In this document: positions 39,681 through 41,756 of the stretch, in pieces
Layout: every line of letters starts with the position of its first letter
How positions within the stretch are numbered: the stretch's first letter is position 1
Source: Massilia sp. YIM B02443
Lineage (GTDB): Bacteria; Pseudomonadota; Gammaproteobacteria; Burkholderiales; Burkholderiaceae_D
Assembly: GCF_030411955.1 (NCBI RefSeq)
Contig: NZ_JASNRA010000002.1
Span: forward strand, 186,001-250,000
Direction of reading: 5' to 3'
Length of the DNA stretch: 64,000 bases
The notes under the pieces: generated by a model
What the model saw: the letters and a program-made list of their open reading frames with translations, nothing else
Databases searched by the model: none
Told to the model about the DNA's origin: nothing
Made by a program: the position numbers and the translations under genes

Positions 39681-39858
39681 CTAAACAATCCTTCCTAGTC
39701 GATTCCACACAATCCGCCATGATGCCACTCGAAGCCGCCTCATGCCAGAGCTCGCTACTCTTGAAGGTGTCGAGCGGCATCAATTGATGAGTCTCAAGGC
39801 GTGCCCGGCCCGGCGCGCGACCATGAAAACGCATCCCGTCATTACGCGAGGAGTCGAC

Positions 39859-41391
39859 ATGGAATTGCCCGCCTTGATGCCCCATCAGTTGATGCCTGAT
39901 CCGCTGATGCCCGATCCCCGAATCTCCGACAACGGGGCCGACGACGGCCCGCCGGTCGAGGCCGAGCCGCTGCCGCACGCCTTCGGTGCGCGCGTCCTGA
40001 TGTGGAAGCAGGACCCGTCGGTGGACGAGATCGGCACCCGCAAGGCTTACCTGCCCGGGGTGGTGCTGGCCGGTCCGCGCGACGCCCGCATCGCGCCCGG
40101 CGAACCGGGCATCGCGGCGGTCGAGCCGAACGCCTTCGGCGATTTCGTGCCCCAGCCCGACACGCCCGGCTTCGACGCCGTGCACACCTTCGCCGTGGTG
40201 CGCCAGACCCTGACCATGTACCAGCGCGCGCTGGGCGCGGCCGGCGTCGCCATGCCGCTGCCGTGGCAATGGAACAGCAGCGTCGACACCAGTCCGCTGC
40301 GGGTGTTCCCGCACGGCCTGCCGGACGTGATGAACGCCTTCTACAGCCGCGCCCAGGGCTGCCTCAAGTTCGGCGATTTCGTTCCCGCCGGCGGCGGCGA
40401 GCGCGTCTACATCTGCCGCTCGTTCGACATCGTGGCCCACGAGACCGCGCACGCGGTGCTGGACGGCATCAAGCCGCGCTGGCTGCAGGCCGACGCCCCG
40501 CCCCAGACCGGCGGCCTGCACGAATCCTTCGGCGACCTGAGCGCGATCTTCCTGGCCCTGTCCCAGTTCGACCAGTGCGAAGCGATCGTGGCCCAGACCA
40601 AGGCCAGCCTGCACGACAAATCCTACCTGACCGACATCGCCGAGCAGTTCGGCGTGGCGCTCGGCACCGGCACCGGCCTGCGCAACGCCGACAACGACCT
40701 GCGCCTGGGCCAGGCCGGCACCCAGGTGCACGCCATCTCGCAGGTGTTCACCGGCGCCGTGTACGACGTGCTGGCCGACCTGTTCGCCTACGAGCGCGCG
40801 CCCGAACGCGAGGACGACGCCGCCGTGCTGCACCGGGTGGCCGGCTACCTGGCCGGGGTGCTGCTGCGCGCCCTGATTGCGTCCCCCGAAGAAGCCGCCA
40901 CCTTCGCCGACGTGGTCAACGCCATGCTGCAGGCGGTGGCGCAGGACGGCAAGCCGCCCGCCTACAGCGGCTTCATCCGCAACCAGTTCAGCCGCCGCGA
41001 CGTGGTCGAGGCCGGGCATGGTGCGGCCCTGGGTGCGGGAATCGGCGGCACGGTCGGCGCCCCCCTCGGGGCCGCGCTCGGCGCCGGCGCCGACTTCCTG
41101 TCCTGCATCCCGCTGGCGGCCAAGGTGTGCGACGCGCCCGGCGCGCGTCAGGACCGGCGCGCCTGCTGCGGCACCATGCAGCTGGCCGAGTACGCCAACG
41201 CCGAAAGCCTGCTGGCCGGCGAGGCGCGCCTGCTGGCGCGCTGGTGCGCCGAGCACGGCCGGCATGGGCCGGCGCTGCCGGGGATCTCTCCGGGCAGCCG
41301 GCCGGGAATGGCGCCGGGCGCGGCCGCCGCCGTGCCCGCATCGGGCCTGCCGGCGGCGGCGGGCGCGCTGGACGGGACGCTGCTGGCATGA
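39859..41391 (+). CDS. M4-like zinc metallopeptidase without signal peptide
   Basis: A 510-aa gluzincin. Zinc ligands are in HETAH (His194, His198) with catalytic Glu195. The third ligand is Glu222 in HESFGD, with Asp226 giving the ExxxD of thermolysin-like enzymes. His291 in QVHAISQVFTGAVYD fits the M4 transition-state His. No signal peptide is seen, as in protealysin-type enzymes. I start at 39859 because AGGAG lies 6 nt before that ATG; the frame is open from 39742. The last 110 residues are unusual: a Gly/Ala-zipper-like segment and Cys-rich patch. The stop overlaps the next start (ATGA), coupling it to a probable inhibitor. Confidence 0.75.
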   Translation: MELPALMPHQLMPDPLMPDPRISDNGADDGPPVEAEPLPHAFGARVLMWKQDPSVDEIGTRKAYLPGVVLAGPRDARIAPGEPGIAAVEPNAFGDFVPQPDTPGFDAVHTFAVVRQTLTMYQRALGAAGVAMPLPWQWNSSVDTSPLRVFPHGLPDVMNAFYSRAQGCLKFGDFVPAGGGERVYICRSFDIVAHETAHAVLDGIKPRWLQADAPPQTGGLHESFGDLSAIFLALSQFDQCEAIVAQTKASLHDKSYLTDIAEQFGVALGTGTGLRNADNDLRLGQAGTQVHAISQVFTGAVYDVLADLFAYERAPEREDDAAVLHRVAGYLAGVLLRALIASPEEAATFADVVNAMLQAVAQDGKPPAYSGFIRNQFSRRDVVEAGHGAALGAGIGGTVGAPLGAALGAGADFLSCIPLAAKVCDAPGARQDRRACCGTMQLAEYANAESLLAGEARLLARWCAEHGRHGPALPGISPGSRPGMAPGAAAAVPASGLPAAAGALDGTLLA

Positions 41392-41756
41392 AGATCAGCG
41401 CCCGCGCCAGCGGCGGCTTCGCCGGCCGCGATCAGACGGTCGAGCTCGATACCACCGCCCGCCCCGACGGCGCCGCGCTCGAAGCGCTGCTGGGGCGGCT
41501 CGACTTCTTCTCGGCCGCGCCCGCATGCGCGGTCGGCGCCGACCTGCCGCGCTGGGAAATCACGGTCGAGGACGGTGCGCGCTGCCACACCGTGTTCCTG
41601 AGCGACGATGGCGGCACCGCCAGTGAGGCCGGCAGCCATGTCGGCGACAGCGCCGGCAATCGTGCAGACCTCATCGCAGGCAATGGCGCCGGCAATAGCG
41701 CCGGCACCAGCGCCGACTGGCAAACGCTGCTCGGCCACCTGCGCCGGCTCGCCTGA
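41388..41756 (+). CDS. Probable emfourin-type inhibitor of the M4 peptidase
   Basis: A 122-aa protein starting MKISARASGGFAGRDQTVELDT, then ALEALLGRLDFF and WEITVEDGARCHTVFL. SGGFAG near the start, a short helix and a beta-rich end recall emfourin, the protein inhibitor encoded next to protealysin-like peptidases. Overlap of 4 nt with the peptidase gene fits an enzyme-inhibitor pair. Between the last strand and the terminal helix is a low-complexity insert rich in Gly, Asn, Ser and Ala (about residues 80-110) that I do not expect in the family. The assignment rests on motif and context only. Confidence 0.6.
   Translation: MKISARASGGFAGRDQTVELDTTARPDGAALEALLGRLDFFSAAPACAVGADLPRWEITVEDGARCHTVFLSDDGGTASEAGSHVGDSAGNRADLIAGNGAGNSAGTSADWQTLLGHLRRLA

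Follow-up and report, generated by a model that had tools for sequence, protein, structure and literature searches.

A divergent M4-like zinc peptidase gene overlapping an emfourin gene in Massilia: a probably cytoplasmic enzyme with a probable dedicated inhibitor

The Massilia group comprises soil bacteria. In the window, a stretch of 64,000 nucleotides from Massilia sp. YIM B02443 (contig NZ_JASNRA010000002.1, positions 186,001–250,000, forward strand), a two-gene unit at 39859–41756 consists of a gene for an M4-like zinc metallopeptidase followed by a gene for an emfourin-family protein (Table 1), and these limits, given by a first-pass annotation, proved correct when the frames were read again. 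A methionine is aligned at the peptidase start in 53 of the 56 distinct orthologs. The stop codon of the peptidase gene (41389–41391) overlaps the emfourin ATG at 41388, so that the ATGA by which the small gene had been described as coupled to the peptidase gene can be read directly. The first-pass annotation spoke of genes fused in an operon; one probable operon is indeed present, but the genes are adjacent and in separate frames, and no natural peptidase–emfourin fusion was found, the frames being separate in all 27 named loci with emfourin. The pairing of a peptidase and an emfourin in one operon is itself backed by family search, gene order and phylogeny. A scan of the locus for a promoter and a terminator found none. 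In the source genome, the small gene is the single Pfam Emfourin match, and there are two Peptidase_M4 matches, the second of which scores 115.7 bits.

Table 1. Features of the peptidase–emfourin unit (window coordinates; residue numbers refer to the encoded proteins)
Feature	Position	Strand	Basis
Shine–Dalgarno-like AGGAG, 5 nt ahead of the peptidase ATG	39849..39853	+	Sequence
M4-like zinc metallopeptidase gene, 510 aa	39859..41391	+	Pfam Peptidase_M4; model like M4/M36
Cys186, eight residues ahead of HExxH	40414..40416	+	56/56 distinct orthologs
HETAH zinc-binding/catalytic motif, residues 194–198	40438..40452	+	H194, E195 and H198 in 56/56 orthologs
Third zinc ligand E222 and ESFGD, residues 222–226	40522..40536	+	E222 and D226 in 56/56; profile alignment
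His291	40729..40731	+	56/56 distinct orthologs
Gly/Ala-rich low-complexity stretch of the window copy	41029..41097	+	12-bp tandem repeat at 41042–41086
Cys436–Cys437 of the C-terminal ACCGTM tail	41164..41169	+	Both Cys in 56/56
Emfourin-family inhibitor gene, 122 aa	41388..41756	+	Pfam Emfourin; ATGA overlap with the peptidase gene
Emfourin insert, about residues 78–104	41619..41699	+	Absent from 26 aligned orthologs; pLDDT < 50

The HExxH and ExxxD motifs noted in the first reading are confirmed as HETAH and HESFGD (residues 221–226), with H194, E195, H198, E222 and D226 invariant in the 56 distinct orthologs, and profile alignment sets ESFGD on the canonical Glu motif. Comparing by eye with thermolysin numbering, we take His291 to be the candidate for thermolysin His231, and Asn159–Ala160 and Arg275 to be the counterparts of thermolysin substrate-binding residues. 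All 56 distinct orthologs share a His198–Glu222 spacing of 24, whereas it is 20 (14 enzymes), 22 (five) or 23 (three) in a set of 22 canonical enzymes; the spacing of 24 first reported therefore stands, but its contrast with a fixed value of 20 does not, as the canonical range is 20–23 and 24 lies just outside it. This canonical set was taken from 24 loci beside other emfourins (L084 not included), 22 of which were aligned, with a 428-residue frame (L102) and a 440-residue frame (L107) left out of both the alignment and the length range. The 56 orthologs are 443–557 residues long (the shortest is cut by a contig end) versus 337–366 residues in the 22 canonical enzymes, and thus the protein is, as had been stated, longer than protealysin. 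The sequence CCGTM is found in 55 of the 56 distinct orthologs, and Cys168, Cys240 and Cys463 are near-invariant (28/31, 29/31 and 29/31, respectively), so that cysteine conservation reaches beyond the tail.

Among the 31 peptidase orthologs scanned at E-values up to 10, all matched Peptidase_M4 (PF01447), the window copy with the best E-value, although its residues 107–201 pass narrowly (23.7 bits against a cut-off of 22.4); Peptidase_M4_C (PF02868) matched five of the 31 (best E-value 0.034), the window copy not among them, and NCBIfam gave no match at E-values up to 1. In searches for solved relatives by sequence, the peptidase profile gave weak unrelated rows only and the peptidase alone gave none. 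Confidence in the predicted model is low (mean pLDDT 57, pTM 0.59), and a Foldseek search with it returned no match with E < 0.001, the top 20 rows being M4 or M36 enzymes. When the Foldseek chains were aligned with VIA-align, 29 of 999 reached Z ≥ 8, all of them M4 or M36, and the rows that followed this block had Z ≤ 7.4. The highest score was obtained with the M36 fungalysin 7z6t (Z 18.8, 279 residues, 4.2 Å), compared with Z 15.4 for thermolysin 1kei (250 residues, 4.0 Å) and Z 14.1 for the protealysin precursor 2vqx (228 residues, 3.8 Å). The modelled peptidase thus resembles the thermolysin-type fold.

The highest mean Kyte–Doolittle hydropathy of any 19-residue segment within residues 1–60 is 0.22, and the top value among the 31 orthologs is 1.2, which bears out the signal-less N-terminus of the first-pass annotation and suggests that the peptidase is probably intracellular and cytoplasmic. 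The protealysin propeptide (PF16485) was matched by none of the 31 members, a weak test, since two canonical enzymes also fall below its cut-off. Of the 56 orthologs, 49 have a PTPSA-type segment near the N-terminus; neither the window copy nor the M. aurea clade has it, and in the window, LMPxP-like repeats occur at 39859–39980, where this segment is missing. Towards the C-terminus, a linker of variable sequence (about residues 383–420), which holds different inserts in other orthologs, is followed by the conserved tail.

The small protein had been called an emfourin from its SGGFAG start, which occupies residues 8–13, and the comparison with the family that had been called for assigns it to Emfourin (PF20242) with 36.9 bits against a gathering cut-off of 27; the family was also matched by all 27 ortholog proteins scanned at E-values up to 1. 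Invariant residues of the emfourin include Gly–Gly, Asp–Thr and Gly–Ala–Asp. Its model has a mean pLDDT of 68, and Foldseek gave no row with E < 0.001, the top rows being subtilisin inhibitors with an E-value of 0.18; the solved emfourin was not among the best 50 rows, and a sequence search for solved relatives gave weak unrelated rows only. The extra stretch of the window copy contains a 12-bp tandem repeat (41675–41715), and the simplest reading of this insert and of the Gly/Ala stretch of the peptidase would be a recent repeat expansion. At the 29 other loci centred on an emfourin, the neighbour is a canonical M4 enzyme in 25, the divergent enzyme described here in two, and neither was recognized in two.

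Peptidase matches were found in 62 of 245 genomes of the family, including the source genome, and the breadth of this distribution, together with the low dN/dS ratios described below, indicates that the peptidase frame is not a chance one. Two distant matches (best E-values 8.3e-22 and 7.0e-14) were set aside, leaving 60 close orthologs. An emfourin adjoins 50 of these, 46 recognized with Pfam and four (G125, G182, G094 and G238) with a model of the emfourin clade, which still found two of them when those rows were held out; Pfam alone, by which 14 of the 60 would be without a neighbouring emfourin, is too strict for calling absence. In eight of the 60 orthologs, emfourin is absent within about 1.3 kb, so that the inhibitor appears not always to be needed, and in the remaining two (G091 and G113) the peptidase match lies at a contig end. 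In a sample of 299 genomes of the phylum, close orthologs occur in the source genome and one congener, and distant matches in six more.

The 41 named loci comprise 27 with emfourin and 14 without, L065 among the latter being truncated at its contig end. In all 41, a divergent PHA_gran_rgn gene lies ahead of the peptidase gene, and fdxA, fpr and phaZ, as we name the respective Pfam matches, are found in 38, 36 and 38, respectively. The contigs of L052 and L065 end early, L060 is without all three genes though its contig continues, and L058 and L059 are without fpr. The locus is therefore a syntenic chromosomal site between polyhydroxyalkanoate (PHA) and ferredoxin genes, and this fixed place is a first, weak hint on the physiology of the pair. 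At nine loci from genomes without the enzyme, PHA_gran_rgn is followed by fdxA after about 217–238 bases in two (L136 and L137), which represent the empty site, about 1.3 kb separate the two genes in L139, and no fdxA was found within 1.5 kb in the other six. Elsewhere in the L136 and L137 genomes, an emfourin adjoins a canonical M4 enzyme. Mutual exclusion between the enzyme and other emfourins was considered and not retained, as emfourins that are not beside an ortholog occur in one of the 60 enzyme-bearing genomes and in 14 of the 185 others, a difference that is not significant (Fisher p 0.13). With regard to a mobile origin, 166 plasmid records matched the peptidase, none covering 80% of it, and none matched the emfourin.

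The absence of the inhibitor is scattered over the peptidase tree (n = 55, 39 with emfourin and 16 without; L065, cut by its contig end, was left out), which requires at least ten changes of label, eight of them forced by well-supported branches, and which by itself does not separate gains from losses. Remnants of emfourin were sought by eye in twelve of the emfourin-less named loci (L056 not included): L036, L037 and L038 have a short frame with an emfourin-like C-terminal end, L044 keeps about the first ten emfourin codons and L067 keeps the first ten and the last twelve in one frame, and in 120 bases of each of the other seven no remnant was seen. Because such remnants are kept at some loci, they speak for loss, rather than gain, as the likely origin of the pattern. 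In the ten closest pairs, dN/dS is 0.12–0.26 for emfourin-less and 0.11–0.26 for emfourin-bearing peptidases, and for all usable pairs the medians are 0.35 for emfourin-less, 0.42 for emfourin-bearing and 0.39 for mixed pairs. The terminal branches of the tree are longest for two emfourin-less peptidases, L022 (0.67) and L030 (0.64), and mixed pairs that include either reach dN/dS of 0.51–0.67; constraint may, with some uncertainty, be relaxed in these two, and the emfourin-bearing L027 and L031 have long branches too. In the M. aurea and L055–L057 clades, the enzyme is, to judge from the sequences, kept under selection without the inhibitor, and the catalytic residues are kept in all 56 distinct peptidases although some of their loci are without emfourin.

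We consider it likely that the two genes specify a thermolysin-fold zinc peptidase that is cytoplasmic and belongs to a divergent M4-like clade, together with a dedicated emfourin inhibitor, and from the features described above we infer the location, activity, binding and translational coupling of the pair. The ATGA overlap would supply the inhibitor along with the enzyme, and the emfourin, which is predicted by analogy to inhibit the M4-like peptidase of its locus, would bind at the active site and hold the enzyme inactive; at a guess as to trigger and substrate, a signal or damage would then free the peptidase, which would cut cytoplasmic proteins. For protealysin and its emfourin, PMC9505478 reports a single operon, a complex of 1:1 stoichiometry at the active-site region, and an optical density that falls earlier when emfourin alone is deleted.

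The sequence pattern also suggests a second control on the enzyme besides emfourin. Since Cys186, Cys436 and Cys437 are invariant and the inhibitor is missing in places, we can envisage a latch of the enzyme's own, in which the ACCGTM tail (Cys436–Cys437), carried on the variable linker, would reach the cleft and hold the zinc or pair with Cys186. A redox change or cleavage would release the tail, and emfourin would be a second, dispensable lock; a latch of this kind would explain the repeated absence of emfourin. We regard it as rather improbable, and the low-confidence peptidase model cannot place the C-terminal tail. To our knowledge, no such latch is known in M4-type enzymes, and a literature search on a cysteine switch in the thermolysin/M4 family found no paper; searches on a protealysin-like inhibitor operon and on Massilia M4 family metallopeptidases likewise found none.

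Against the preferred reading of a divergent peptidase with its own inhibitor, the locus might be a canonical protealysin operon that has merely diverged in sequence, as the gene order, the close coupling and the M4 and Emfourin families are alike in both. We think this unlikely, because a profile of the orthologs aligned with the 22 canonical enzymes over just 68 columns, in the region of HExxH and the Glu motif (probability 91.6, E-value 8.1e-7), and the N-terminal regions showed no likeness to the canonical ones (hhalign probability 0.2). Moreover, the nearest core relatives outside the clade, at about 26–35% identity, are M4-like proteins of Rhizobiales plasmids and other Pseudomonadota that are without known emfourin. 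The emfourins are also separate: in a tree of 27 emfourins of the clade and 22 others, the 27 form one side of a branch with an SH-aLRT of 99.6, although with 100 columns and long branches the inner order and the root of this tree are unsure (L095, L096 and L102, which have no emfourin frame, were left out, and L112, whose partner was not recognized, was included). On these comparisons, the peptidase is best classified as a member of a divergent M4-like clade and not as an ordinary protealysin.

An effector–immunity pair, in which the peptidase would be exported to kill neighbouring cells and emfourin would provide immunity, would equally place enzyme and inhibitor in one operon, an argument made for protealysin in PMC9505478. 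A cell that lost immunity before the toxin should suffer, yet a search that did find the positive controls G125 and G182 showed no emfourin of the clade anywhere in the 17 genomes whose enzyme is emfourin-less (two pairs of which carry identical peptidases); 14 of the 17 are also without any Pfam Emfourin match, and the other three have one beside a canonical M4 enzyme. Selection on the enzyme without its inhibitor argues against a plain toxin–immunity pair, as does the syntenic chromosomal site, and we hold this explanation to be very unlikely. A scaffold that emfourin binds but that has no catalytic activity would agree with the low M4 score, but is highly improbable with the zinc ligands, the catalytic glutamate and the third histidine invariant in 56 of 56 orthologs. 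Least probable of all is a peptidase that is inserted in the membrane or secreted, with the Gly/Ala zipper of the first-pass annotation as anchor or tag, since residues 403–421 have a mean Kyte–Doolittle value of 1.51 but residues 323–341, inside the predicted fold, score alike (1.53), the stretch holds a 12-bp repeat and is missing from all 30 other aligned orthologs, and of the clustered cysteines it is the invariance of Cys436–Cys437 that stands and not a role in membrane insertion or secretion.

Among known systems, the locus most resembles the protealysin–emfourin operon of Serratia proteamaculans (M4 and PF20242), in which a signal-less M4-type peptidase is likewise followed by an emfourin, whereas the Massilia enzyme differs in its 510 residues, its spacing of 24, its C-terminal Cys–Cys tail, the absence of a recognizable PLN propeptide and an emfourin from a clade of its own. 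The M36 fungalysins give the highest fold scores with the model, yet M36 (PF02128) was matched by none of the 31 scanned orthologs at E-values up to 10; across 116 family genomes, this profile had two matches, one of them above the cut-off and neither in the source genome. The M4-like proteins of the Rhizobiales plasmids and other Pseudomonadota share HExxH and an FHE-type Glu motif with the Massilia clade; in the best ten plasmid matches the alignment stops at or before residue 384, leaving the tail unmatched, and at three plasmid loci inspected no emfourin is annotated alongside, in gene tables that are incomplete. Other M4-like proteins were seen in varied settings: a 405-residue HExxH protein whose start lies some 50 bases after a TfuA-family gene (PF07812, 122.9 bits; L079:180–2172, genome G367); a 971-residue frame (L076:433–3348) that combines a subtilase domain (PF00082) with an M4-like region missed by Pfam, with a related plasmid protein annotated merely as a serine protease (L134); and a distant protein without a Pfam match on a Rhizobium phaseoli plasmid (L133:2620–6890), whose neighbours on either side are an LCAT-like hydrolase and a protein with weak likeness to beta-lactamases, with S8 peptidase and lysozyme genes near. 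The results contain nothing that bears on invasion, to which the first-pass annotation had tied protealysin–emfourin pairs. The published emfourin work that we found rests on protealysin, and here the partner of emfourin is an enzyme far from protealysin, whose close relatives, some with the inhibitor and some lacking it, offer a natural comparison for the purpose of the inhibitor and for changes in its specificity.
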